From Corallium rubrum (lineage: Eukaryota; Cnidaria; Anthozoa; Scleralcyonacea; Coralliidae), in the NCBI GenBank assembly GCA_964035015.1, contig OZ035999.1:6086176-6150175 (forward strand): a DNA stretch of 64,000 nt. Direction: 5' to 3'. Shown piece after piece: positions 23,726 to 63,594 of the stretch (the stretch's first letter is position 1; each line of letters starts with the position of its first letter). The translations under genes and the position numbers were made by a program. The notes under the pieces were generated by a model. It searched no databases and had not been told where the DNA came from. It was given only the letters and a program-made list of their open reading frames with translations.

Positions 23726-35149
<11,424 letters not shown>

Positions 35150-41300: not shown

Positions 41301-44300
41301 TGCATCTAATTGTGTCTTTGTTGTCTTTTTTTTAGTCGTAAATGCCACCGTGAAGAAGTTCTGTGTAAGGTACGATTTTTTCAACTTAATCCCCAATTCT
41401 TAACCGAACGAGTAATCCCGGAGTGCTGGCCAAAAGGCGAAGAAATCTGTAAAGACGCAATAAAGCAAGCACTCATTTACCACAGTTCTGAGAAGAAACA
41501 GCGACTGGAACTACAAGAAAAATTGAACCCAAGATATCCAAGCAAGGTAACAAAACACTAATTCACTGTAACGTAGAAACAGGATATTTTACAACGGCGA
41601 CGAGGACGATATCTTGGGAGTAAGCGCAGCAGCAGTGTTCCAGGGTTCCAGTGAGCAAATAATTAACCTCTCTTATTAAGCGGACAAATCCATATCAAAA
41701 TTAAGGTGGTTCGACAGTAACTCATGAAAAATTACATATTTTCTTAATGAAAAATTTTGCCCAGGTTTCATGAGCTTCATTTTATTAGTTCATTGCACAG
41801 CTCTAGTGGCGGTCTTGATTATTGAAAATATTAAAGACTTATAAACCGAGTGCGAGGTCTGTACGGGAAAGTATTTGCCTGAGGTTTTCGTACAGACCGA
41901 GCGACGAAGGAGCGAGGTTTGTGCGATAAAACCGAGGGCAAATACTTTCCCGTACAGACCGAGCAAACGAGGTTAATAAGGAATTTATTATATGGCTATT
42001 GGTTCATTTTATTTTAAAGCTTCGAGCGTTGTTTTCGTCTTCGGAGTATGCTGTTTACCTTACCTGTTGACTTTTTCGTGTCGCTTCTTGGCCTTCTTAT
42101 TTACACCAGTTCGGCTTTTATTTGTCGTGTTTTTAGATAAACAGCTTTAAAGAAAACCAGCAGTGATGTTCCAACACATTTTATTGTTCAGAATATTTGA
42201 ATAAAGATACCTATTTCTCTTTTATTTGTATTCAAATCAACTCAGAAATGTTCCCGCCAAAACTTACAGGGCCGAGAAAAAAGCGTATTGACCGGTCGGT
42301 CAATATCGTAAAATCCCGACCTCTCATGAACCAATCAGCGTGCGTCGTCTTGCGTACGGACCGAAAATCAAACCCAGCCATATAATTAATAATTATACTT
42401 TTAGCGCTTGTGTATCTAGAGGTACGCTTGTGTTTGGGGAAACACTGATGCGACTCGACTCGTAAACTTGTAGCAATGATATCTCATTAAGAATTTAATG
42501 GATTTTTCTGTGGTTATTCTACAGCTAGTATGCTATGGAATGAACTAGAATAAAGATTATTGGACCAATTTTTGTGCATTTGTCAAATACATTCTTCAAA
42601 TTTGAGCAGTTTTTAATTAAATATATAGTAAATATTTCATACTTTTGATCCGTTGGCCTAAATCAAATATCTTTAGTTCATTGCATAGACTTACCAGTTA
42701 AGTTAAGTTCCCGGTGGGGTTTTCCCCGGCTATTTCTTGGTTACTACGGCACGGATGTGCTAATAAGCATATGAATGAAGTCACCTTAACATGCATATAA
42801 TAGTTATGTAATTTATATATTTGCTTCTTAGTTAACTTTAAAAAGTTGAAATTTTGAGGGTCATACCTAATTGGCTTCTAATTGACTTTCAGGCCATTTT
42901 CATGTTCGACAGCAGGACGCCTATTATTGAAATGTACGATCCGATTACCGAGGATTGTGTGGAAGGGATAGGCATGATGGTCTGCCGAGACTGTGCTGCA
43001 GACCAAGGGTGGCGTCGAGCAGCCGTGGTGGTCGGCAACGACCTGTTTGTCGTTACAGCTTCTAAAGTTGAGAAATTCAATAATTTGTTGTTGACATGGG
43101 AAAAAGTCGCTGAAGGTTAGTCACCAAAGACAAACTGGAGTAACTAAACGAACGAACGAACGAACGAACGAACGAACGAACGAACGAACGAACGAACGAA
43201 CGAACGAACGAACGAACGAACGAACGAACGAACGAACGAACGAACGAACGAACGAACGAACGAACGAACGAACGAACGAACGAACGAACGAACGAACGAA
43301 CGAACGAACGAACGAACGAACGAACGAACGAACGAACGAACGAACGAACGAACGAACGAACGAACGAACGAACGGACGGACGGACGGACGGACAGACGAA
43401 CGAACGAACGAATGAATATGGACGAATACTCGAATGGACGAATCAATCAACTATCCATCAACTATCTATTCATCCATCTATCCATCCAAACACTCACCCA
43501 CTCATCTATCCATCCACCATCAATTAATGGACCTTTTCGCCAATAGCCGCGCCATCTTGAATTCGCAATGCACTGTGGTTGGTCTATCCAGGGTAATAAG
43601 CTCAATTAAAAGGATGATTGCTTAGTGTTGAGACACAATGCGGTAATTTTTTCTTCATAAACACTTTCATGGCAACAATGTCTAGATATGATCGTTGTCA
43701 TATTGGTAAAAGCAATAATTCTCGTACGTATAAGGATACATTTGTCATGAATCTATGCTTACACGTCCGAGAATTGTTGCTTTTACCAATATGACAATTA
43801 CACACTGCATCAGATGTATTGCGGTGCCATAACGAGTCACGACTTAGCAGCGCTTTGTATTCCGTTCGTTCGTTCGTTCGTTCGTTCGTTCGTTCGTTCG
43901 TTCGTTCGTTCGTTCGTTCGTTCGTTCGTTCGTTCGTTCGTTCGTTCGTTCGTTCGTTCGTTCGTTCGTTCGTTCGTTCGTTCGTTCGTTCGTTCGTTCG
44001 TTCGTTCGTTCGTTCGTTCGTTCGTTCGTTCGTTCGTTCGTTCGTTCGTTCGTTCGTTCGTTCGTTCGTTCGTTCGTTCGTTCGTTCGTTCGTTCGTTCG
44101 TTCGTTCGTTCGTTCGTTCGTTCGTTCGTTCGTTCGTTCGTTCGTTCGTTCGTTCGTTCGTTCGTTCGTTCGTTCGTTCGTTCGTTCGTTCGTTCGTTCG
44201 TTCGTTCGTTCGTTCGTTCGTTCGTTCGTTCGTTCGTTCGTTCGTTCGTTCGTTCGTTCGTTCGTTCGTTCGTTCGTTCGTTCGTTCGTTCGTTCGTTCG

Positions 44301-47300
44301 TTCGTTCGTTCGTTCGTTCGTTCGTTCGTTCGTTCGTTCGTTCGTTCGTTCGTTCGTTCGTTCGTTTAGGGATCTTAAGCAAGCACAACGCGAACGTCAA
44401 CAATAGTATTTTTCAACCAAAACAAAACGTTGAATAATTTGCAGTCCCAAAACAAGGGACAACAAAAGCTGTTAGTTTACTTAGGCGTTAATCTATCATA
44501 CGTCACGTTGTCGAAGTTATGGCTGCTTTTTAAAGATCTTACAAAATACATAAAGCATACAATATACCATATCCTGATCCATGGTTTCTTTTAAATGCAG
44601 TAACTTAATTACCGTATACAAGCCAGCCTTCATGTATACAGAATATACGCCCTGTAGTATATAGTGTATATTGTATATTTAGGATGTACACAGGCTATCT
44701 GACTACATAGCAACCTTGTTATAAAACATCGCTACAGCAAGTTGTTGGTTAATCCATAGTTAGTGGAAGGGGGTGGTTTGAAAGCTACATTGTCTTTCAA
44801 GATTATGCAATGGTCATGTTGATGAACGCAACAGTTCATGTTGGAGGAAGGCAATTGGTTGAAGAAAGGAAATTCTATGGACACGTGACGACGAAGGACT
44901 ACACAACGAACAAAGAACTTACACGTGATGACGAAGGACTACACCAATTAAACCCAAACGTTGGTATTGGATGACTGCTTCATTATACAGAAAATACAAT
45001 ACGTTCAGTGACCGTGAAATTAGCAAATTAAACAAAAGCATGGAACGATGACTTTTGCCGAGTTTCCAAACCATCCCCCTCCACTAACTATGGTTAATCT
45101 GCGACAGGCTTGTTGATCACAAGTCCCAACAACTTGCTACTACAAACTTGTGAGCAATTATTTGAGTTGCAACCCCACTTCCGACGCGCCCTTGCTCCAA
45201 AAACAAAAGATCTAAATATAAGTATACACAATTGCCACGTGGAATAAATGCAAACATAAAGAGCTTCACAAAAGAGAGTCTTGTTCTAATTGTTCTGGGT
45301 TGGTGAGCACATGACACTTTAATTAGCACTTAGCCAGTGACGGGGGAAGATGTTCTGTACTATTGGAGGGGATAATTTATCAATAGAATGATAAGGATTG
45401 TATTTTGACCCCTCAGCAAGTTTTAGCCAATTCTTAACCCTATTTTTAGAGAGATTGCATATTGGGAGGGCAAGTACACGAGTCGGATCGAATAGCTAGT
45501 ACGAGTCCACCGTCTAGTTTATACACGGTTTATGAGCCACAGAATGTGTCTCTGACGTTTTGCACAAATTAAGTTCACGATATCAAAAACCATAGAGGCT
45601 GACGGACATATAAGTGACTTCCCTGATTTTGTAGGCTAAAAGACGAAAATATATCAACATCTACATTTCGTTTGACATCACACCAACTATGAACTAATAT
45701 ATCAGGAAATTGCATAAAAGTATCCTGAATAAGTTTTAACTATGTAAAAAATTAGAGTTTGAGATAAATAAAACTTTGGATAAATAAAACGTTGGATAAA
45801 CAAGCACTGTGAATAAATAGAAACCTAAATCTAAAAATCTAAAAATATTTACATATATATTAAAAAAGATCACCTAGTTTGGCTTTAAATTTAAAAAGGG
45901 AGTCTGACCATTAACCAATTTCTGATCTCTAGAGCTTTGCTGTTGTAAATCGTTTAGACAATCAATCTCAAACGTTTCTAAAATGCGATCACATACCTGT
46001 TGATAGCCATTTTGAATTTATTACGGAGTATAATTCATGCAATAATCCAATAATACATGCCTGCTGAAAATAGGCAGGCACGTTCACGAGTCCATCCGTG
46101 ATTTCGGGGGAGGTGAGTGCCGGATTTTTCTTCACGGAAAATACCTAAATATTTCTTTGGTTTTTAAGTAGTTTTATTAATATCATCTTTCTTTAAATAA
46201 TAAATAAAGACATATAAGTTTTATTTTAGGTGTCGACGTACGACAAGCAGCCATTTGTGCTGACGAGGATTCCTTTTACGTGCTTGGTGGAAGAGATCAG
46301 TCTTTAGCAGTGAAGTGTTTTAATGTTGAAAGGTTATGCTGGAGTAAACCTCCGTTGGAAAATATGATTACAGGAAGACGATCGGCTGGTGAGTTGGAAC
46401 GTCAAGATTACTTTTAAGAATTAGGAAATCGAGAGTTTCTCAGTTTATTATATATAATCGAGGTAATCGAGCCAAAACAATATGATGATGATGATGGTGA
46501 TGGTGGTAGTGGTGGTGGTGATGGTGATATGGTGGTTGTAATAGTGATGGTGATGTTGGTGATATGGTGGTGGTGTTGATGGTGGTGGTGTTGATGGTGG
46601 TGGTGGTGATAGTATTGTTGATGGTGGTGGAGCATGGTGATGATGGTGGTGATGATAATATGGTGGTGGTAATAGTGATGGTAATGTTGATGGTGGTGGT
46701 GATATGATGGTGTTAATAGTGATGGTGATGGTAATGGTGATGATGGTGATATGGTGGTGGTAATAGTGTTGTTGATGGTGGTGATGGTGGTGATAATGGT
46801 GATATGGTGGTGGTAATAGTGTTGTTGATGGTGGTGGTGATGGTAGTGGTGGTGATGGTGGTGATGGTGATGGTGGTGGTGGTGATGATGGTGATATGGT
46901 GGTGGTGGTGGTGGTGGTGATGATGGTGATATGGTGGTGGTAATAGTGTTGATGTTGGTGGTGGTGGTGATGGTAATATGGTGGTGGTGATAGTGATGTT
47001 GATGGTGGTGGTGGTGGTGATGATGGTGATACGGTGGTGGTAATAATGATGTAGTTGATGGTGGTGATGGTGATGGTGAATCGACTACGGTGATTACGAT
47101 GATAATAGACTCATGATCATGAATTTACCGCCAGTCCTTGTGGCCAGGTCTTGACCTACCAGTTTTTTTTGACTGGAGATCAAGCGCATTGTGTTTATCA
47201 TTTTAGCGGCCGTTGCTAGCAATGGGCGACTCTACGTATTGGGTGGATTCGGTGTTGAGGAGCCACTAGCTTCGATGCATCGCTATTCTCACCGTCGCCG

Positions 47301-48158: not shown

Positions 48159-48590
48159 TTACGGGCCGTTTTCCTCCGGCTTACGCGGGGGTTGGCCGAC
48201 GGCTCCCCACAACAGTTTCCTCCACTTCTCTCGCTCCGGAGCATCCTCCCATTTCAACCCACACTCTCTCATATCCCTTTCCACCACCTGACTCCATGTC
48301 ATCCTCGGCCTTCCTCGTCCTCTTGTACCTTCCACCTCGAGCGACATGCTCTTCTTCACCCAGTCACCATCGTCTTTACGCAGCACATGATTCCGGTTGC
48401 GCTTTATGACATCAGACACCAACTCAATCCCCATTCTTTCCCTCAGTTCCGCACTCAGCACTCTATCCTTTTGCGATACACCACACATCCATCGCACCAT
48501 CCTCATCTCTGTCCGCTCCAATCTCCTCCTCTGCTCTGAAGTCATTCTGCTCTGCAGTCATGGCCCACGTCTCACTTCCATACAAATAAT
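48159..48590 (-). pseudogene. Non-LTR retrotransposon ORF2 C-terminal end (RTE-like)
   Basis: The minus frame from 48545 to the stop at 48159 encodes RRLERTEMRMVRWMCGVS, then ELRERMGIE, HVLRKDDGDWVKK and GTRGRGRPRMTW, the conserved C-terminal segment of RTE/CR1-type ORF2 proteins. YGSETWAM is still readable just upstream in a different frame, so a frameshift lies near 48540-48550. The upstream side ends in an AAT microsatellite, a 5' truncation. No reverse transcriptase core is present. Confidence 0.8.
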
Positions 48591-49740: not shown

Positions 49741-50969
49741 GTTCAGTGTAACCACCTAAGATTAAAATTAACTAAGATTTAAATATTCAACATTTTTTTA
49801 GAGAAGCATCTCTGTCGCCAGACCTACAAATACAACGTGTACTAAATGTTCTCGGTCCCCATCAATCTCTCGTGTTGCGGTTGTGAAAGGACTGCAGTCT
49901 GCTACGTAGGCAGTGACAGTGTTATAATGAAGTACAAAAATAGATTACCGAATTGGAAAAGTTCAAGTTCATTTCTTTGTTTTCAAATTTAATTTCAATA
50001 ACTCTTATGCTTGCATTTTCTTAAAGATCGAAGACAAATAAACGGCGATTTGTTTGAAAACCCTCTTATTAAAGAACAGCTACATTTACTTGCTTTTATA
50101 GTTATCTGTACCATTGTAGTCTTGCCAATTTTCAATTTTCAGCCGGACAAATTAAGACTACCAGATGGCCATTTGACGCAGCAGTCAGAGTGACGCGGCT
50201 TGTGTCGTTATTGACATCTTTTTATCAATAACCGATTATTCCGTTCTACACCTGTGGAAATAATATTCAAATACACACGACTCAGATTGGAACAAAGATA
50301 TATATAAAAATATCGAAAACACGCGCTAGGTGGCTAGCCAACCTTCGTACAAGTGAAAAATATCGCTCAAATAATCTAAAATGCAATGATGTGACAGTAA
50401 AAACTAAAGCTGATTAATCCCACCCCAATAAAATTCGCCGAAATTTTTTTTATTCTTTTTACAAGCTCGAATATATATTTCAACTATTTAAATCTCAGAC
50501 ATTTACGTTGTGTCGTTGAGTATAATTTAGTCGATAATTACAGTCTTTTACGACAGCTCTGAACGCACTGACAATATTGATTCTTTTGGGTAGAATAGTA
50601 AATAATAATATTTAATAAGAAAGAGCAAGCGATCGGGGACGGCATGTTTTTCTTGTGATGCAAATCACAGGAGCGATTTCAAACGCCAGGTGTCTGTGAA
50701 AAGCTGCAAAGCTATATGGGATGTAACGTCTGTTTACTTTGAAGCAAAAAAAAAGAACGCGATGTGATAAGGCCGGGATAATCTTCCCTCCCAGCTCAAA
50801 AAAAGGTGTGAAGTGTTATTTATTGCTGACGATATATTTTAAGGAAATTCTGCGGCGGCGAGGCGGACTTTAGATCTTCACGTGTTGTGTCCAGTCTCCT
50901 TTGGCCGCACGCGGACGGGGCCAAAACGCGAAGGCCTCGCGCGCGGGGAACAGATCAAACGCAAATGCC
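49741..50969. other. Upstream region of the GSE1-like gene
   Basis: No repeat or separate gene is supported to about 50820. The segment 50840-50960 is GC-richer than its surroundings (GCGGCGGCGAGGCGGAC) and probably contains the promoter or 5' UTR. No TATA box is evident. The in-frame stop TAG at 50871-50873 limits upstream extension of the coding exon. Confidence 0.45.
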
Positions 50970-53900
50970 ATGTCTTCTACCGAGTTAGTTGATAGAGCTT
51001 ACGGAGCAAATTCTTCGCCGTCTCGGACCAACAAGCAGACGGAAACGAGTGAATGCGTTGTGTGCTACGTCTGTGGAGGAAATGGTGCGAACTGGTCGCT
51101 CTACACGAAGGCAAACGACAACGACAAGTCACCTTATTTTCCGTTTTTGGAGTCAGTCGAGAAAGCCAAAGGTGCGAAAGCGATGAAGCTGAATGGTCGA
51201 ATCGACGCTTGCACCGTTTGTTTCTCGTTTCTTCTTCAGCAATGGCGCTCTTACGAAGAAATGTGTACTCCTGTGGATAAGAGAACCTACTGGTTGAAGC
51301 GGACGGGCGCGGGAGGCATTGACTTCAGTAATTATCGGGGTCACGGCTTCGCTGTCGACGACGCTACTACACGTGAATTGACTTATTTTGACAAAAGCGA
51401 AGGTATTGTAGAGGCTTTGAAAAACGTCAAACGCTCAGAAAAGGACGAGGGGAGCGTTTCAGTATCGAGTGATAATACCGAAGATGAACACGAGAAGGCA
51501 AGGGAACGAAGTGAAGAGATCTCAGAACATGTCACAACAATGCACAATAATGTCAATAACACCAAGAAAGAAAGTGAACATTTGAAGGATGACAACTGTA
51601 TTAAAATCGTTGAAAGCGAAACACACGACTCATGTTTCGCGTGTGGCAGTCAGAAAGTTAAGGATGTTATGCGAATTATTCATACTAAGCCGCAATTGAA
51701 GACCGAGACTCCATTCTTTCCCTTCCTTGCCCACCATCATATTTCTCCTTCGAAAGCGAAGAAAATGGACTTCACTGGAAAGGTGACGGTCTGCGAAGAT
51801 TGTGAATTCGTCTTGCTGAAACAATGGAAAGTTTTCGAAAAACAAGGTACGCCATTATCAGAACGTCGATATCACCTTCCATTTGAGGAAGAGGATTATG
51901 AAAAACAACAGACGTCTTCTTCAATGGTCTGTTTTATTTGTGGAGAAAGCAATCCAGAAAATTCTGCTTGGGATTTGTATGTGAAAAAAGGGAGATTAGG
52001 GGATCCTTATTTTCCATTTCTGTCAAAGCTTTTGCCTGCACCCGGTGCGACACCACCTATTGAAGGTCAGGTTCGGGCATGTACCCGATGTCACAAATCT
52101 TTGGTGCATCAGTGGGATGTTTTTGAGACCAGAGGTGCATGCGAACACGAGAGAGAGTACAATGTTCAGAACAAGCTTAGGAGTGTTCTGACAGCTCCAT
52201 CATATTCTGAAACCAAGGAATTGAGATCAGAGGTCAGTTGCTTTCTTTGTAAAGTACTGTGCTCTGGTCATGAAATAGAATATATTAACCCACCATTGCA
52301 CAAAATCTCCACGTATAAAGAACAACATTCTGGAAAAATACCTGTTTGTTGTAATTGCAAGAAAATTCTCAATGCTAAAGCCACAAAGCTTGAATCAAAT
52401 AATAATGAACTTGAAAAGCAGTGTAGCATTCATCCCTCGTATAGTGAACGCCACTGTACAGAGAACAGCTCAAATGCAAGAGATTATTTGCATCCTGTGT
52501 CGTACGAGAACAGAATAAACATGTGCAAAGTAAATAATGAATTTGAAGTTTGTTTTCTCTGTGGTGAAAAAGTTAAAAGAGTGAACTCAAAATGCCTTTA
52601 TGTCCTCCCCCGACAAGATTCAAATGGTTTCAAGCCATTTTTTCCATCATTGGCTTACATGAGGCCGGCATACCATGCAAGACCACTCGCATCTTCAGGA
52701 ACGGTTGTTGTTTGCTGTTATTGCCATGGCAACATGACAAACCAGTGGTACGAGTTTGAAAAGCCTGATAATGATGGTATTACAAATCCATGGTCAAGAA
52801 AGTATTTTTTAACTCAATTTACATGTTATCTTTGTGGGAAGATTTATTCTCGTCAAAAGATTATATCCATATCAGTCAGGGACTATCCATTTTTAAATAA
52901 AGTGCGAAGACCTGTCCGAGCTTTCAGGATGAACAATCATGAAAATTACATTGTATGTCACCACTGCAAAGAAATAGTTTATATTCAAAAGGAAAATTTT
53001 GATAAATGTGGAGTGACTATCTGTGAAAGGGAGTATGAATTACCAATGGTCACAGCTGATTCAAAAATTGGTTGCATTTCTAAGGTATGTTACCATTAGA
53101 TGGTTTAAAGTAAAATTTTCATGGTACAATATAACTGTAGTCTGGTATTTGCAGCAGTATTAATTAACACTTTGTGGCCTGGACCTCTCCCTGTGCTGAA
53201 TAAAACCATCTGGCGTAAGCCAGAATAAGATACTAAGGACTCATTGTCAGGCTTCAAAGTGTTAAAGAGATGGGTTTTAACACTTTGAGGCCTGGACCTT
53301 TCCCTGTGCTTTCTTCCCAGAGGGTTGTGGTTAGGTTTAGGGCCACCAGGGTGTGTGGTTAGGTTTAGGGTCAGGTTTAGAGGTGGGGGGTTGGGATTTA
53401 ATTTCTTCAATATTCAGGTTTATCCTGAATTCTAGACCATTTCACAATTCACGATAATTCCAGATGAGAGAGTATCCCGGGTTGGTATCTCATGGACCAA
53501 AAGCTAAGGTAGGATCAGGATACAGAAAACCCAAGTATTTTTTTGCTTGGCATAAGCACTTATAGTTGAGCTTTACGTCATGTCAAGTCATGTAATTTTT
53601 GCATGGAATTAACTTGCTCATTGCAGCTGAGTCAATTTGCATTGCTACAAATCCAAGCAAATCTGATGACTTTGTTCATGAATGCCGTAGGTCACTCCAT
53701 AGTTACCCCAGAGCCAGTCAGCTAAACTGGTCAGTAAAGCTGAGTGGTTGTGGCAATATTTTATTTACTATTAAAAATGATGCGCGCGCAACACCCTGAA
53801 ACTCGCCTATAAACAATTAGCACCAAAATTTACTTGCCTTATGTTTTTGTAAAAAAAATAGGCTTGTGCATAAAGGTGTTGAAAAACAACCAATATAGAC

Positions 53901-56900
53901 AAACTTTTTAATACTAAAAAACTGATAATCGGTTATATAGTGAACAGAATTTATCATAACTCAAGCCCGTTCTCCACTAGGTGAATTTGTTCGCGCGAAG
54001 CAAATTCTCGGGCAATATGATTGGCAAGTAAGAAAATTGGTGCGAAAACTAGCAGCACCAACCAATTACATTGTATGAATGGGTATTTCGATTCGATTCG
54101 CGCGAACAAATTCCCCTAGTGGAGAACGGGCTTAATATCAAACTTGAAAAACATTGAGGGATTTCTTTGCATTCCTAAAGAACATTGTGAAATGGTGTTT
54201 CAGTTAAATATGATGGCTATATTTGCAAATTTTATGCACTCACAGCCTCTGTGTTTATAATGCGTAGATCAACATCACTTAAGGTGGCTCCATACAGTTT
54301 CTAAAAAAATGGAAAATACAAGTTTGAGAGTCCAAAACACGTGCATAAACAATTCGGAAAAAGAAATGTTATGCATAGTTAAACAGCCTGACAATCAAAA
54401 ACTAAATAGCAACAGTTGTTGCTATGGAAACTTAAATTTAATTTCAGAAAAACTTTGGTAACCCCCAATTTTTTTTCCATTAAAACGTTTCTTGAAGTAT
54501 AAGTAATTAATAGGCCGGTTTTAAAAAAATTCTATAAATCCAATTTCTTTAAAAATTAACAAACATGATTTTTCGGGAAAAAATTATTCGTTCTACTCAT
54601 ACTTCAAGAAAAGTTTTAATGAAAAAACCCATTTTTTTTCAAATTAAATTAGTTTGAAGGGTAATTGGCAGTGATTTTGAAATGTCATTGTTGCCATAGC
54701 TACAACTGTTGCTATTTATTTGGTAACAGTTTTTGGTTGTCAGAGTGTTTAACTATGCATAATATTGGTTTTATTCTTTTTCCGAATTGTTTATGCATGT
54801 GTTTTGGACTCTCAAACTTGTATTTTCCATTTTTCAAGAAACTGTATGGAGCCACTTTAAAATTGTCTAAAACAAGTTTGAATAACAAACAAATTAGGAA
54901 AAAGAAATTGGTTCATTTACATAAATATTGATATTACCAGTATTTTTCCCCTTGATATCAATATTCTATATTTCTTTAAATATCACAGTAATAACTATTG
55001 TGATAGCAGATTTCATCTATTGCAGTTTGTGACACAGCATCCATAGTACCTTGTGTCCATTTTAAATTAATAAAATATGTTTAATAAAATGTATGATTAT
55101 GAGAATATACAAATTTCAATGAGTGTTCACAAAAGTGTGACAATCCAGCAGAAGTTAAACGTTTTTAAATTTTGCATAAGATTATGGGTATAATTCAGGC
55201 AGATGGTTTTTGGAGACACTATGCATTGTCTTTTGAGCATTCTTTTTTTAATTAACCGCAGCAAATAAAAATATTTAAAAAAAAAAGTAAATAATTTACC
55301 ACATTGTGTCTCAAAAAATTATCTGTATATATTTCTATTGTCGCTGGAATATTTTTGAGTTCTAGCTATATTTCAAGAAATTTAAAACAAAACAATTTCT
55401 ATGAATGTCAATTGAATTAATAATAGCAGTCTGTGAATAAAAAAAGAAACACTGTCAAGCACTTTATCCCCCCCCCCCCTATTTTTAATAAATTTAAACT
55501 CTTTTTTTTTATACTTTACTAGATTTTTTTAATGGTTGATTGTAGATATTGTAAATACAGCTTCTTAATGTTCGTGAATTATCTTTTTTTTTTAAAACAA
55601 GACAAAGAAATAAAAAAAAATATGTTAAATATAAAAAAAGATTTACAAAACTGCAGTTTTTACTGTGCTGTTATAAATTTGGACTTTAATGACTGAACTT
55701 AATTTAACTTTAAAATTTTAAATTACAGTTAGTTCTATTTCAAATCTGAACTTAACTCTACACAAGCCCCCATGATGAGCTCTTAAGCTCTTGGGGCAAA
55801 TGTAAAGGTGACCTAATAAAATATTGTTTATATAAAAAAAATAAAAATCTGAACCCATTCTAATTTGAGCCAGTAAAAATTGATCTATTTGATATTTTTC
55901 TTAGTTGTCTAATTAATGCCAGAGAATTTCAAAAAGAGAACCTTTAATCAGTCTAAGCAGCAGTGTTAATTTTAACTTTAGCTAGTAATCTCAGTTATAT
56001 TGTAAAAGCTAGCTGATGGTTTACTAAGTGATCTGGGGCAATTTGTTAAACCATATGTAGTTAGATAACATACTGTATATTGGTTAGCTTTACATGTGTT
56101 TTGAATTACATTTTACATGCTTCAGTAAGCTCCATGTATACAGCCTATAAACTTACTCAGGTTGTTGAAAACAATTCACAGACAGATTTTTATTTGTATT
56201 GTCTATTGTATAATACTGTTTTACTTTTGCTAATAATTAGTTGGTGTGGAAGGAGGTTAATGTGGAAGAAACAGGGAGATTTCAAAGCAATTTAATAGAA
56301 TGGTTCCCTAGTAACCATAATTATATTCATGTTTCCTTAAGCATGCAAATAAAGCTGGATTACCTGCTTTGAAAATGTTAATTCATTGTGACATCTTAAA
56401 AACCTGCTACTCTATGGCTTTAGTTGTATAGTTTATGTACACTGTATTCAGAAATTCTCTAAGTTATGGGCACAAAGTATACTGTAGCCAATATTTTTTG
56501 AAGAACCCATAGTGTAATGTTTCTTTTCATTTTGATTTATACTAATAATAAGCTAGACAAAGCCTTTGTGTCTCTGTCAGTCCAATACATGCAAAACATT
56601 TTTCTACTTGAATCAAAGTGGGTTTAGTTTCTATTGAACAAGGCTTGCTATTCTGTATTTTGCTGTTGTTCATTGGTTTGTAGATTTACAATAGGTAATT
56701 CAAAACCGGTTAAGGTCATTGAAACAAAAATAAATAATTACTATGGTTGAGTGATTTTCTTCTCATTGAAATTCGTGAAAGCAGGTGTTTAGACAATAGA
56801 GTTAGCAAACAGTTATCCCTCAAGTATATTGGAAGACATGAGGTAGGATTTCAACTTATTTTTATCATTTGGTAATGTACTCAAACACTCTGAACTATCA

Positions 56901-59900
56901 AACAATTTCAACTGTGAACAGTTCACATCTCTTCTGATTTCTCAAATCATTTAAAAAATCTCTGCAGTCAGATAGACTAAGAAATAAGATCAAGGCTTGA
57001 AAACAAAGAAGTTCCTAATAGATGAATTATTTATGATTTGATGAATATATTTGGGTCATATCTGTATTTTTGTGGCTAATGTCCAATTTACAAGTACCTT
57101 AACAACTTTGAGGAAGCCATAATAAGTTATGTGGGCCAATAACTGATTGTTGATTTGTTCAAATAGCCTGAATGTTGAAGGAAGGTACGTAGGAGGGAAG
57201 ACTTCTAGAGGGGAAGGTAGTTGAGTGGAATAAATTTGCTGGTGGTTTAAGAAATGTTTATTGACAAATGATTATTAATGGCACTTTACACCAGAGTTGA
57301 ACAATAGTTTGTCTTGGTTACTGTCTTTTCAATCTGGAAGCATGGCCATCTCCAGATGGCCCCTTTGTAATGACATGTAAATGAATTCAGAGCTAAACAC
57401 CATGTTGCTTGCTATATGTCTTAACAAAGGTGTTATTATCTCTGCATATATTAACAGCAAGCATGTGTACCTCTTATGAACCTATTCACTCATTACTTGG
57501 TCTATGCATGCTCTTTTGAAGACTGAATCTTTACTGGGACAGGTAACAAATATTTCTCACTTGCTTTTAATTTCTAAGCTTTACTTTATTGATACAATGT
57601 TGAAAATAATTTCCATGGGGGATTCAGCTTTCATCTTGAACAGAATTTGATCACTGGAGATAGTGTGTGCTGATCAGTCAAGGTCTAGCTCTATTTAATA
57701 GAGATATGAAACCACACTTATTTCAAGGAGCAAGGGCTTATTTCCTGAGCTGGCTGACTTATATGAAAATGTAATGTTTTTCACAGGGGAACTACTGTTT
57801 ATCAAGTTGATGAATTTTCACTGTGTGTTAATATACATATTCGTGTTTGATAATTAAATTGTGATATCTAAGAAGACAGCTTAGTCAGATAAGGAGCACT
57901 GTACAGTACCTGTATCAGTAAAACAGTTTTTATATATATTACAAATTTATTCTTTGGGTTTGAATGTAGGCAAGGAGTTAACTGTTGCTTACAAGTGTTA
58001 GTTGGCCAAGCAGTGTTAGTGCTAGTCTAGACTAAATCGTGTTATTTGGAGGATTGATGTGAAATTGTCCTTTATAAAAAGTACTTATTACATTATTTCA
58101 TATTTCTGTCAAAGTAGTTTAACAGTTTAATGTCAAATTTGGTTGCAACAGTTGACAACATGGGTGTTTTCTTATTCCTTTATTTTGCTTTCAATAAGTG
58201 GTATTATTCTCTAGCGTGTGCTGTGCTACCTGCACAATGCTAATTTATTCAAGAACTTATGAATGGAAAATGCTTCTCTCTGCCTAAGATAAAGGAATAT
58301 TTTCCACATTTCTCTGGAAATTGATTTCTTTTGAAAGTTACTGGGATTAACTTGAACCTTTGAGTGTGAATGCCTTCTTTGGGGCTGTGATTATTTCAAT
58401 TTGTTCATGAAAAATCAACCTGTTATTTTCTTTTATTAGCATAATGTTAATTTAGTCCATTGAATAGATTGCTTCCCTCCTCTGTTGGTGAGCACATGGC
58501 ATATTATTTATTTGATTGTAAATGAAAATAATAATGTTTTGACATCAAACACAGGGCTGTTATTGGAAAGAAACTTTTGAAGTATGACTACACAGAGAAA
58601 AAGGGTTTAAATTTAACCAAGGCTAAAAAATATTTATTGTATGGATATTGCTTCTACGAATATCCAATGGCATAGCATTGTTTGTTAATATCTTGAAGTG
58701 ATTTTTGTGTTGTTCTAAAACTTGAAGTCTCCACTGATAATGCAAAGCTCTTAGTTCAACTGTTGTTGGTTTGCTTTGAGAAAAACTGATTTGATCTACA
58801 TGTTGTTTTGGTTTATGTAGAGGTAAATTAATTACATATATTTACCAATAACAGGTTGTTGATACCAAACTCTTGTACATGTGAAACTAGACACACCTAC
58901 TGAACATTTGTTCCAATGAAAATACTTTATAAGCCAACTTTCTGGTTGTGACAAAGTTTGTTTAATTCTACAAGGACTTACATTTAAATATTTGGAATAT
59001 AAATTACACTTAAGTTAAGTTAAGAATTTAGAATGAAAAAATTTTTAGAGTTGCTTTCTTTCCTAAAAGATTTTAAGATTTTTTTCTTCTGTACTTCCTA
59101 AATTGGCTTTAACTTTGTGTATGTAGTGTTGATTAGATTTATGTGTATTATATATTTTTTTAAGTTGAAAGGCTTTTATTGTCTTATATGTAGGTAAATA
59201 CATGTATGCTTGCAGTGTTATATTAGATTACTATAAGTGATGAAGTGTTTTTTGTATTTTTTACCCCCGTTAATTCCCCATGCTGGCTGAGGATCTTTAG
59301 ATTGAGTAAAATTGTGTTAGACAGAGCAAAACAATAAAAGGACTGTTTTTGGCCAGCTTGGGCAGGAATAATCCAAATAGTGTAATAAAAGTAGCATGCT
59401 GCGTAGGCAGTGTAGAAACAACAATCGAAATATAGTAAGGTTAAATATACTGCCGAAACAGAGAACATAGGAGTCTAACGTTTTGGCAACTCAGAAAAAT
59501 CCAATGTAAACAAATCAATGAAAATTGTGCTTCTTCATGCATCTTCGAGCGCTGTAAAAATTAAGCCTCAATTTAGATTGTTTATGAAATAATGCTTGGA
59601 GATATGATTCAATTTATTTTCTTGTGTTAAATTAATCTACCTGTAGTGTACCAATTGTGGTGGATCAAAATCATCAAATTAAACAAGCACAGATAAATTC
59701 CATATTTTTGCACAACCATGTAGTATTGTATATTTATTATTTTTTGAACTAAAACACAAAGGGTAAACAAGAGGGTAGTTGCTGTAGATGACAATTGTAG
59801 TGTTGTGCTAACCTAATTTCAACTGTCAAATAATTTTGTTCAAATATAAAACTCAGATACATGTATATACTTTTTTTTACAGACACTGAAAAGGAAAGCA

Positions 59901-62900
59901 CCAGAGAGTCATTTGTCAAGCAGTCATACAGTTGTCATTATTGGTGACAGTGAGAGTGAAGGAGATGATATTGAGTCCCCCTCGAAATTAGAAGAGTCTG
60001 TGAATGTGTCCGATGATTTGAACTCATCAAACTTGCTGACTGGTACAGGACACAAACCATTGGCGTTACAACCGCAAGCTAAAGAATCCACTGTTCAGGG
60101 TTTGCCTATGAGTTCATCTGCTGCACGGGACTCTGGTTTTGCTGCTGCACTTCGTAAACTTGCCAAGCAAGCAATGTCCCCTGGTGCCCAGTCTCCTGTT
60201 ACTATTCCACCTGCCACTAACCCCACTATGTCACCAGTCAAAAGTAAAGGTAAGTTATGACTCCAATTCATAGTTTTTGAGTTGTTGAATGATCTTCACT
60301 TGTCACCCTAAAAGTCATGGTTCCCATGTAATCCATGGTATTGGTAAACAATTTTCCAATTTTTACTTGCACTGTTTGTTTGTTTGTTTGTTTGTTTGTT
60401 TGTTTGTTTGTTTGTTTGTTTGTCTGTTTGTCTGTCTGCATGTGTACGGAATATCTCAAAATGTACCTAAGGCCAAAAAAAAAAGTATTCTGTTTCTGGT
60501 AAGGGCACATGCCCCAAATCAACGCGGTGACACGTTTTTGTTTTTTTCCCTTTTTTCCCCCCCAAGGCAAACCTTGATTGAACAGACATCTGAAACATGT
60601 TGAGTATTCTTATAAAAAGTCACATGGTATACTGAACATGTAGCATGAACACATGATTGAAATATGAAGCCTTCAATCAGTGCCCGCAAACATACCAGTG
60701 GTATTCATAGGAAACATTGGTTGAGAATAGACCGATCAAATATTTAATATCCACTGGTGTCATCTGTAGTCAATTAATATTAAAAATGTTAAAAAAAGTA
60801 TTGATGCGCAAGAAAATAGATGATGTGTGTGCTGACCAGAAACATAAGACTTTTTTTCCTAATGGAGGCATGAGTGTCACAATCTGTTAGCATACTGCCT
60901 CTCACTGCCGAAGTTAAGCTGGTCGAATGGGATTAGTATTTGAATGGGTGAGCAACTTAGCTTCATGTGATTAGAGTTGTTGGTTTGTGTCTCGAGAGTT
61001 TTTCACCAGGTTCTACAGTTTTCCTCACTCCACAAAATCATCACAATAGTTTCCCCCAGGTAATTCTACAAACTAGTCTCATCAAGGGGTGAGCCAGGCC
61101 ATTAGGTTAACACTATCTAAATACTGTCATAATAAGGCCAATTAAAAAAATAGTTCTGTTTTTCATCGCCGCCCGCCCCCAAAAATTCGTCCGCCCCGAT
61201 TTTTTTAATTTTTTTTGATCGTCAGTTATCTGTTAGAAACCAAACATTTGGCGCCGTAATGCGCTATTGTTGTTAGAAAAGAGCAGTAAATCATGTCTTT
61301 GCTTTTGTTTGTACCGTCGCGCGTGAGCAAAGTACAGTAGCCTTCCGAAGAAACTGGACAAGCAGGTAAATCGTGCAAAGCTTTGAAAGTTAAAATTAGC
61401 TTTAAACGTGCAATACCTTTGGACAGTAATCGTTAGCTATGCAGGCAAAGCGTACGAAATAGAAAACATCTCAACTTTTAACCCGTTTTCTGTAAGAAAA
61501 TACGCTACTAATAAAAATAAAAAAAAAATCCGCCCGCCCGCCCACCCCAATTTTTTCAAAAAAAGTGATGAAAAACAGAAATATTTTTTTAATGAAACCA
61601 CTGCACTGCTGCACAGTCTACTTCTTTACTTTGTATACTTTTCTAAACTATTTTCCAAAGCTTTCAGATGGATTGAAGATTTCTGATGTAGCTGTTCTGA
61701 TTGTTTTCTCGTTTTCTTTAGGTTGGGAAAGTCCAAAGCTTAATGGAGGACCAAGTAGTTTCAAGAAAGAAGTCCCAGATCCAAGCTTTCTGAGTAGCAA
61801 AGGTATCTACAGTAGTATATAGTGTATATATTTTACAGAATACTTATACAGTACTGTTTTCGAAAACCATTTTCCTATTTTTTTCACATGTATAAATTAT
61901 TAAAATAATGAATATTTCAGCTTGCTAGTCAGGCTGTAAGTATTTAGGAAAAATCCTTAAGTTCCCAGATGGGGGTTGAACCCACAACATTGTGGGCATT
62001 ACTAACTTCTTATTAACCGAACGCGAGGTCTTTACAGAGAAATATCGGACCGAGGTCTTTTTGGTACAGACCGAGCCCGTAGGGCGAGGTTTGTACACAA
62101 AGACCGAGGTCTGATATTTCTCTGTAAAAACCGAGCAAGCGAGGTTAATAAAAAGTTTATTATATGGCATTTTGAAACAACAAACCTTACATTTATACCT
62201 TGTCATGATACGTACTTTAGTCAGCTTAGTGTGACCTCGAGCGTGTGACATAAACTCATCGTTTTCAATGTTGTTGCTTTTGTTGTCGTCGCTTTCGGAC
62301 TCCTAAACTCGCTTCCAGATTGCTCTCGTCCCAATCATACATAATTTAGTCCTCAGGTTGTTGAATTCACAAAATTCTTGCGGTTTTCTTTCGTTGTTTA
62401 GTTGCAAACAACATGGCTGATAAGAAATTTGTTTGTTTTTTCTCCGTAATGGACCGCTAAAAATGTTTCTAAGCCAATCACAGCGCGCTATTTCACCGGA
62501 AGTGACGCTTGCCATATAATAATAAAGACTTATTAACCAAGTGCGAGGTCTGTACGGGAAAGTATTTGCCTGAGGTTTTCGTACAGACCGAGCGAGGTTT
62601 GTGCGATAAAACCGAGGGAAAATACTTTCCAGTACAGACCGAGTAAACGAGGTTAATAAGGAATTTATTATATGGCTATTGGTTCATTTTATTCTTAAGC
62701 TTCGAGCGTTGTTTTCGTCTTCGGAGTATGCTGTTTACCTTACCTGTTGACTTCTTCGTGTCGCTTCTTGGCCTTCTTATTTACACCAGTTCGGCTTTTA
62801 TTTGTCGTGTTTTTAGATAAACAGCTTTAAAGGAAACCAGCAGTGATGTTCCAGCACATTTTATTGTTCAGAATATTTTAATAAAGATACCTGTTTCTCT

Positions 62901-63594
62901 TTTTTATTTGTATTCAAATCAACTCAGAAATGTTCCCGCCAAAACTTACAGGGCCGAGAAAAAAGCGTATCAGGAACCAATCAGCATGCGTCGTTTCGCG
63001 TAACGGACCGGAAATCAAACCCAGCCATATAATAATTGTAATAAAAATATAATAAACACACTCTAACCATGGAGCTACTAGGCTCAGTCGCTCGCTCAGG
63101 TGACAGCCGGTAGCAGACCGAGATTATCACCAACCCGCTACAGTAACTATTTAATTCATTCAGGGTAGTTATTAGCTTGAAGTTTTACCTTGGTCCGTAT
63201 GTGAGAAGTTTTGACTCTGCCGAACACCAGGTCTTCTCCGGGTAGTCGGGTATACTCTGGTTCCTTCCTGTAGTAATACTGGACCAGTGAGTGGTGGTCC
63301 TTACTGGACCTGTAGGGAGAACAGTTTAGACATGACTGATAGGGTTATCCAGAATAAATAAAGTTAGTTTAGTTTATTTATGGCTGTTAAATAAAGTAGT
63401 TACTAGGTTCCTGTTTTATACTACAAAGACCGATTTCGATGAATATCACTCGAAAACGAAACTTTTCTTGTCTGAATTTTGATCACCAGAAAACCGTGGT
63501 CACCCAAATCTGCCAACGCCTTCAGATCTCGTTGGTATCCCTACGAGCATGGGTCATCAAGTTGTGCCTGGTGTGTTCTCTTTGGGCTCTAGAG
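50970..63594 (+). CDS. GSE1-like protein with six N-terminal Cys-rich modules (partial)
   Basis: Exons 50970-53084, 59883-60249, 61722-61802 and 63490-63594 join in frame (phases 0,1,1, then 1 at the open end), giving 889 codons so far. The start is the first ATG after the in-frame TAG at 50871. Exon 1 (705 codons) repeats a module six times, at about residues 30-107, 222-301, 321-397, 424-475, 527-612 and 618-690. The pattern is C-x2-C, PFFPFL, C-x2-C, QWxxFE and RxY; module 4 lacks PFFPFL and QW, and module 6 is reduced. The four cysteines probably bind zinc. Exon 2 starts LKRKAPES, then an acidic Ser-rich stretch, then FAAALRKLAKQA at about 791-802. That motif matches the N-terminal region of vertebrate GSE1, a nuclear protein of HDAC/CoREST-type co-repressor complexes. 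Later exons continue a Pro/Ser-rich, probably disordered chain. I do not recognise the module family by name. Confidence 0.7.
53085..59882. other. Intron 1 of the GSE1-like gene
   Basis: 6.8 kb. The left 1.8 kb holds repeats: TTAACACTTTG repeats (53165-53290), a GGTTAGGTTTAGGG-rich patch (53325-53400), a fragment near 53765-53815 matching 5995-6036, a MITE at 53963-54132 (AAGCCCGTTCTCCACTAG ends) and a foldback at 54281-54862 (AAGGTGGCTCCATACAGTTT ends). From 54863 to about 59370 it is AT-rich with no recognised repeat or exon. An ACTGCCGAAA-family copy lies at 59370-59485. Confidence 0.65.
60250..61721. other. Intron 2 of the GSE1-like gene, with TTTG array and 5S SINE
   Basis: (TTTG)n at 60374-60437. 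A degraded 5S-derived SINE at about 60893-61110 (CGAAGTTAAGCTGG, then TTTGAATGGGTGAGC) on the plus strand. Near 61165-61200 and 61530-61560, CCGCCCGCCC-type sequences form a weak direct repeat. Confidence 0.65.
61965..63110 (-). mobile_element. tRNA-like SINE split by two tandem CGAGGTCTGTAC repeats
   Basis: On the minus strand an A-box-like TAGCTCCATGGTTAGAG (near 63068-63084) and a B-box-like GGGTTCAACCCCC (near 61970-61982) belong to one tRNA-like head. They are separated by about 1 kb of inserted repeats: 62012-62520 and 62525-63045. Both begin TTATTAACC, carry inverted CGAGGTCT arms and end near GCCATATAATAA. The second is nearly identical to 41835-42385. Intron 3 of the GSE1-like gene. 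Confidence 0.65.

Follow-up and report, generated by a model that had tools for sequence, protein, structure and literature searches.

In a 64,000-nt stretch of Corallium rubrum DNA (here called the window), an open exon encoding six tandem CxxC...CxxC modules is followed by an exon that carries the N-terminal motif of vertebrate GSE1. The explanation that we favor, with a probability of roughly 0.45, is that this locus represents the 5' part of an anthozoan GSE1 gene whose product would bear a six-module docking head for a co-repressor complex. From the sequence features described below, we judge it highly probable that the exon with the array is fused to the exon of GSE1 type in one transcription unit.

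Coordinates and properties of the features at the array/GSE1-type locus, in window positions
Feature	Position	Strand	Properties
Exon 1	50970..53084	+	705 codons, stop-free; ATG at 50970; donor AAG/GTATGT at 53084/53085
Module 1	51057..51299	+	Full pattern; 62.1 bits, best shuffle 9.3
Module 2	51627..51887	+	Full pattern; 66.3 bits, best shuffle 10.0
Module 3	51921..52163	+	Full pattern; 63.0 bits, best shuffle 8.6
Module 4	52227..52445	+	Decayed; 13.8 bits, best shuffle 10.4
Module 5	52545..52811	+	Pattern kept; 49.2 bits, best shuffle 7.9
Module 6	52815..53042	+	Partly decayed; 29.9 bits, best shuffle 11.0
Intron 1	53085..59882	+	6798 nt; CpG strongly depleted along most of its length
Interspersed repeat in intron 1	53164..53310	+	Contains AATAAA at 53199
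Exon 2	59883..60249	+	367 nt; phase 0 in, 1 out; TTTTACAG/ACA at 59883; AAAG/GTAAGT at 60249/60250
Probable exon 3	61722..61802	+	WESPKLNGGPSSFKKEVPDPSFLSSK; phase 1 in, 1 out; acceptor strong (8.1), donor weak (1.3)

Six CxxC modules in one exon

The initial annotation described a single 705-codon exon with six cysteine modules, and our analysis confirmed this description: both CxxC pairs are retained in 6 of 6 modules, each of which spans 73 to 89 residues when the boundaries are cut by hand. We aligned the six array modules with one further module found on another contig (C8; see below). In this seven-row alignment, A1, no column is invariant apart from those of the four cysteines; A2, a second alignment of these modules, lists one Y as invariant in addition. 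Identity to module 2 in A1 is only 21 to 33%, suggesting that the module copies are old. A pattern scan built from A1 was given up because the alignment was too variable.

Each module was then scored with a leave-one-out profile HMM and compared with the best of 2000 shuffles of its own sequence. On this basis, modules 1, 2, 3, and 5 are far above chance (49 to 66 bits, versus shuffles of at most 10), module 6 is clear, and module 4 is marginal. The claim that modules 1 to 3 and 5 keep the pattern stands, with module 5 having PFFPSL instead of PFFPFL and a 4-residue insert ahead of R-x-Y. Modules 4 and 6 have indeed decayed differently, as had been proposed: module 4 retains its four cysteines while its PFFPFL, QW, and R-x-Y blocks are gone, whereas module 6 retains the four cysteines, YPFL, and R-x-Y and has QK in place of QW.

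Relatives and predicted fold of the module

Three queries were run against the genome: the whole of exon 1, module 1, and the C8 module. Because scoring was limited to the top candidates and modules 2 to 6 were not used singly, more copies may exist. The search yielded one clear additional copy, on contig C8, in what is probably a first exon ahead of RING-type exons; a profile built from modules 1, 2, 3, and 5 gives it 49.3 bits (best shuffle, 12.0). It is of the same type but occurs as a single module rather than as an array of six. The C8 module exon leaves in phase 1, and the RING-type exons chain in phase; no GSE1 part was found in this gene, and its first intron, unlike intron 1 here, is not CpG-poor. 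Outside this genome, a search of other genome contigs with module 1 returned 85 stretches, none of which was confirmed. Among viral contigs, the whole-exon 1 query detected no relative and the C8 module query gave 14 pattern-matching stretches with none confirmed, and a tblastn search of phages with whole exon 1 gave no match. A short frame by GTG-type repeats (C13:1041851-1042012; E 0.066) has CxxC and PYFP without a second CxxC and was rejected as a chance match or a remnant.

The C8 copy, the one clear relative that the genome search yielded, lies upstream of RING-type exons, and modules 4 and 6 have decayed. Both observations are consistent with an origin of the modules in a lineage-specific family, like that of the C8 gene, from which they were captured by GSE1 in this lineage and are now decaying with little function left. 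We consider this scenario unlikely, however: intact cysteines in all six modules are unexpected under neutral decay, and the A1 identities argue that the copies are old.

Structure prediction for a two-CxxC zinc site, which the initial annotation had suggested, yielded a confident AlphaFold model of module 1 (mean pLDDT 86.4), but the structure matches to it were weak. Many of these were treble-clef-like, and none was significant (best E values of 2.1, 0.25, and 0.25 in the structure searches; nothing below E 0.2 in BFVD). Searching PDB by sequence gave single matches for exon 1 (E 1.1) and for A1 (E 9.1), which we judged to be due to chance. In Pfam, no family reached its cutoff for any of the seven modules (six plus C8). 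The best match to zf-FLZ (FCS-like zinc finger), on module 3, scored 17.8 bits (E 0.0023) versus a cutoff of 23.4 and covers the second CxxC only, with the six other modules unlisted; zf-AD, the profile of the zinc-finger-associated domain (ZAD) of Drosophila C2H2 proteins, which we count among the closest known systems, was unlisted for 7 of 7 modules at E values up to 10, although weak matches may be concealed by HMMER filtering. Each module probably holds a single zinc site and has a treble-clef-like fold in which a helix follows the second CxxC.

Probable linkage of the array to GSE1-type exons

The proposed phase-0 join of exon 1 to a GSE1-type exon probably reflects one transcription unit, a conclusion based on the ranks of the splice sites, the phase chain, and a shared CpG-poor stretch, with GSE1-like coding sequence downstream. 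When splice sites were scored with a generic metazoan matrix, the score of the exon 1 donor was reached by 2 of the 546 GT sites in 50970-59882, and that of the intron 1 acceptor by 2 of the 400 local AG sites, the predicted site itself being included in each count.

The CpG-poor stretch spans exon 1 and intron 1 and extends beyond exon 2. Of the seven 1-kb bins that cover 53001-60000, six have a CpG observed/expected ratio of at most 0.37 and one (54001) has 0.70; across the eight 250-nt bins of 58001-60000, the ratio ranges from 0.0 to 0.59. A normal value of 1.32 at 53751-54000, within intron 1, is unexplained. From 61001 to 74000 (window count), the 1-kb bins range from 0.39 to 1.33, with 2 of 13 below 0.45, and most of the presumed GSE1 exons past 61 kb lie outside CpG-poor bins. 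Together with the C8 gene, whose first intron is not CpG-poor, these exons indicate that the CpG proxy is not universal. A separate low-CpG stretch, C12:6173176-6177175 (0.10 to 0.41), coincides with two long plus-strand frames.

Exon 2 carries FAAALRKLAKQA, which matches the GSE1 N-terminal motif, as we know it, at 12 of 12 residues, and no second copy of this exon was found in the genome. It also contains HTVVIIGDSESEGDD, which we take to be a SUMO-interaction-like stretch by its consensus. In-frame ATGs are present at 60108, 60174, and 60228. The 75 codons before the first of these score 3.3 bits in codon usage, a value equaled or exceeded by 80 of 336 open intron stretches; an alternative frame of this part scores 11.5 bits but has 7 stops.

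Candidate exons farther downstream were taken as the best non-overlapping ones after the most repetitive frames had been dropped, and ten of them, several with weak splice scores, were chained by hand according to phase and likeness. This chain omits other candidates, some of them higher scoring (e.g., 63490-63594 and the repetitive 69095-69242). An eleventh candidate, 73120-73752, had the top score of all and was dropped for phase misfit. The ten chained exons are phase-compatible and include, past the end of the window, a GSE1-like coiled coil, RRLRQEK...FRQ, in the frame C12:6153927-6154223 (score of 81 versus controls of at most 51). Four of the six human GSE1 segments, c to f (FLQLFGL, FLTIFNL, YIYDEF, and WEPFV), were not above controls; by eye, KLKFMKDLGLMTVSEKK and KVDFLYNLGLVTHRKRQ, each from a candidate exon of 52 nt, look like FLQLFGL and FLTIFNL. 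Pfam DUF3736 (PF12540) had no match in the eight downstream frames scanned or in the genome, but the control for the genome search matched in 0 of 14 genomes, which makes that negative uninformative.

Two adjacent genes would account for part of these data: an intronless gene ending at the TAG at 53097-53099, and a GSE1 gene whose own first exon lies within the 6.8-kb gap. The frame of exon 1, if read through the donor, meets this TAG only 15 nt on, which makes an intronless reading possible, and AATAAA follows about 100 nt past the stop; however, this signal lies within a repeat present at no fewer than 148 genomic places, counting the one in the window (of 2108 candidates at first look, 40 were scored). 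A donor as good as that of exon 1 is rare in the region, and no CpG-normal promoter is visible ahead of exon 2 in the bins of 53001-60000. Exon 2 has its own ATGs, and the codon usage before them is no proof of coding, but the 75 codons are open and hold the SUMO-interaction-like stretch. Most downstream exons are not CpG-depleted, as two genes would allow. On balance, we regard a pair of genes as improbable and retain the fused unit.

Possible role of the head and comparison with known systems

We can point to no folded domain in GSE1 whose role is known; in vertebrates, the protein is also named KIAA0182. In human cells, GSE1 has been reported to partner with the HDAC1/LSD1/CoREST co-repressor (PMC10681733). 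We infer that the coral gene is a strict GSE1 orthologue and that its product belongs to the CoREST complex. The protein would be of GSE1 type except at its N terminus, where the first coding exon would add a head made of six CxxC...CxxC modules in tandem. This head could serve as a multivalent protein-docking array for the LSD1-CoREST-HDAC complex, holding it on chromatin or on partner proteins, with the SUMO-interaction-like stretch of exon 2 placed immediately after it. Protein docking is the most likely role, by analogy with ZNF198 and its tandem MYM zinc fingers. We consider it unlikely that the head binds DNA sequence-specifically (or binds RNA) and so provides GSE1 with targeting of its own.

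A conserved multimodule head on a cnidarian GSE1 would offer a direct handle on how GSE1 acts in relation to the CoREST complex, and a domain that lacks a Pfam model would be open ground for structure work. It is conceivable, though we think it doubtful, that the module represents an undescribed family of animal zinc domains, that the ancestral animal GSE1 had a six-fold head docking the LSD1-CoREST-HDAC complex to partners on chromatin, and that vertebrates lost it, leaving the job to separate proteins such as ZNF198. If the head is old, vertebrate GSE1 would be a reduced form.

The likeness to vertebrate GSE1 consists of FAAALRKLAKQA and, after it, the coiled coil RRLRQEK...FRQ, an order common to both as far as the human segments compared go; the four other segments were not recovered here. 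To our knowledge, the array is absent from human GSE1, which begins only a little ahead of FAAAL. An N-terminal array in GSE1 is named nowhere among the open-access literature matches listed. A pull-down of Lsd1 from the cnidarian Nematostella recovered CoREST, HDAC1/2, and HMG20-like and PHF21a-like proteins, and GSE1 is not named in the part of that report considered (PMC9400249). A close functional parallel is ZNF198/ZMYM2, whose MYM fingers are reported to bind the LSD1-CoREST-HDAC1 complex as well as HDAC1 in its sumoylated form (PMC2532748). The MYM-type consensus given there is CX2CX19-24[F/Y]CX3CX3[F/Y], which none of the six array modules matches; from module 1 to module 6, the residues between the CxxC pairs number 45, 49, 46, 32, 50, and 40, that is, CX2C-X32-50-CX2C with PFFPFL and QWxxFE blocks. 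ZNF198 is, moreover, a separate protein and not part of GSE1. What the two systems would share is a set of tandem zinc modules, with zinc binding predicted in the coral protein, acting on the same co-repressor as GSE1.

Cysteine modules in exon 1

The initial annotation had described exon 1 as a six-module cysteine array, and this description was borne out by profile scores set against 2,000 shuffles and by conserved cysteines. The exon is an uninterrupted open frame of 705 codons starting at its first ATG, and within it lie six CxxC...CxxC modules of 73 to 89 residues each, with module borders that we set. In an alignment of these with a further copy on contig C8 (seven rows), the four cysteines were the sole invariant columns; when only modules 1, 2, 3, and 5 and the C8 module were aligned, P, F, P, L, G, Q, W, E, R, and Y were invariant as well. 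Profiles were trained on the other canonical modules only, with modules 4 and 6 left out of training. Modules 1 to 6 scored 62.1, 66.3, 63.0, 13.8, 49.2, and 29.9 bits, and since the best of 2,000 shuffles per module reached only 7.9 to 11.0 bits, the array in exon 1 is real. Module 4 scores weakly but retains all four cysteines. An upstream frame of seven codons (50965-50988, ATG at 50965) overlaps the exon 1 start codon out of frame.

Six-frame protein searches of the genome (474 Mb, 312 contigs) revealed one other clear module site, the C8 module, to which the window profile gave 49.3 bits, against 12.0 for the best shuffle. Its exon has an ATG of its own and is probably the first of the gene; two more exons chain to it in phase, and the last has a RING-type match (PF13639, E = 0.00028) that, at 21.5 of 27.3 bits, is under the curated cutoffs. 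Pfam returned no family at its cutoff for any of the seven modules or for the whole of exon 1, no solved structure matched the module or exon in sequence above chance, and no relatives of the module turned up in viral, prokaryote, or phage collections.

Coordinates of exons, candidate exons, and repeat arrays
Feature	Position	Remark
Exon 1	50970-53084 (+)	six modules
Exon 2	59883-60249	GSE1 N-terminal motif
Candidate downstream exon	61722-61802	in phase, no stop
Candidate downstream exons beyond the window	C12:6151172, 6152025, 6152743, 6153984, 6154831, 6156266, 6157368, 6158224	in phase, no stop
C8 module	C8:12047601-12047852	
C8 gene exons	C8:12047541-12047850, 12053207-12053356, 12054067 on	phase-compatible chain
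Simple arrays, 4- to 6-base units	29642-29926, 31275-31653, 32477-32889, 33238-34171, 43147-43416, 43863-44366	near perfect, very long

Probable joining of the array exon to GSE1-type exons

Only 2 of the 546 GT sites in 50970-59882 score as high as the donor AAG/GTATGT, the donor itself counted, and the same holds for 2 of the 400 AG sites up to 60249 and the acceptor TTTTACAG/A, likewise counted; both rankings use generic metazoan matrices. Exon 2, which has a single place in the genome, exits in phase 1, and the candidate exons in the table follow. The next candidate, C12:6159295, has the highest score of all and is out of phase with the chain, which means that one or more exons are absent or incorrect; moreover, the chained exons were hand-picked from the candidate list, which makes the chain weaker evidence than it appears. 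Six segments of human GSE1 were compared with controls (eight shuffles each and the C8 stretch). FAAAL, the N-terminal motif, scored 72 in exon 2 (controls, at most 43) and the RRLRQEK coiled coil scored 81 at C12:6153927-6154223 (at most 51), while the other four did not rise above these controls.

Alternatively, exon 1 could be an intronless gene of its own ending at 53099, which would fit the stop 15 nt past the donor and also an AATAAA at 53199. That AATAAA, however, lies inside an interspersed repeat (53164-53310) found in at least 147 other places in the genome. If GSE1 had a promoter of its own in the gap, a CpG-normal patch would be expected before exon 2, but none is present in 58001-60000, where CpG o/e is 0.0 to 0.59 in eight 250-nt bins. 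The repeat itself, with at least 148 places among the matches listed (the window's own included), is tandemly arrayed at other sites, at a period of about 113 (e.g., C49:805795, 805908, and 806021).

Germline methylation of gene bodies is described as depleting CpG over time in cnidarians (PMC8857923), and in a sea anemone low CpG o/e is reported to accompany measured methylation (PMC8496274). Values below 0.45 occur in 7 of the 64 one-kb bins of the window, all within 53001-61000 (0.37, 0.23, 0.08, 0.07, 0.12, 0.34, and 0.39); bin 54001-55000 has 0.70. Around the start codon, the bins at 50001 and 51001 have 1.35 and 1.28, and that at 52001 has 0.51. This pattern would be the expected trace of one gene, unmethylated at its 5' end near exon 1 and methylated through intron 1 and exon 2. 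Against this, the 13 bins of 61001-74000, where most presumed GSE1 exons fall, span 0.39 to 1.33, with only two below 0.45; insertions, or methylation restricted to the 5' part, could account for the mixture. The proxy is not universal, since the first intron of the C8 gene lacks CpG depletion. Within CpG-poor intron 1, a CpG-normal patch (53751-54000; 1.32) is perhaps a recent insertion.

The proposed splice of the array exon to a GSE1-type exon is well supported, though indirectly: splice ranks, phase, two segments, and the CpG-poor stretch speak for it, and mixed CpG beyond 61 kb against it. We put the probability that array and GSE1 form one gene at roughly 80%. The gene is one of the GSE1 type plus an added domain array; such an array in GSE1 is described in none of the matches listed in open-access literature, and some annotated invertebrate GSE1 proteins may already show it.

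Other features of the window

One GFP-family exon is present in the window (C12:6086176-6150175), whose nearest solved relatives, among the best 60 of 309 matches, are red fluorescent proteins, drFP583 (DsRed) included. From this the animal is very probably an anthozoan cnidarian. The six simple arrays, up to 934 bases long, have the units GACA, AGTC, TGTTCG, TCACT, AACG, and CGTT. A minus-strand open frame at 48159-48557 resembles a LINE-type reverse transcriptase tail.

Possible function of the array

The array head may act in multivalent protein docking, followed in exon 2 by a SUMO-interaction-like stretch, HTVVIIGDSESEGDD (59925-59969, upstream of the GSE1 motif), which we take to fit the SUMO-interacting motif consensus. 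This role is tentative, at somewhat under even odds, and DNA or RNA binding by the array is unlikely; net charges (+2 to +5 in five of six modules, -1 in module 3, and +5 for the exon) decide nothing between these readings. Against docking to CoREST, a Nematostella Lsd1 pull-down names CoREST, HDAC1/2, HMG20-like, and PHF21a-like proteins and not GSE1, and "suppressor element" has 0 occurrences in the main text of that paper (PMC9400249).

In human cells, GSE1 is reported in a complex with HDAC1/CoREST (PMC10681733). ZNF198, another partner of this complex, binds LSD1-CoREST-HDAC1 and sumoylated HDAC1 through tandem MYM zinc fingers and is described as helping to retain LSD1-CoREST-HDAC1 on chromatin (PMC2532748). 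Although the array is not MYM by consensus, it likewise would join tandem zinc-type modules to the same corepressor machine, and because it appears to be placed as the MYM fingers are, with a SUMO-motif-like stretch following, we favor protein docking over DNA or RNA binding by analogy with ZNF198.
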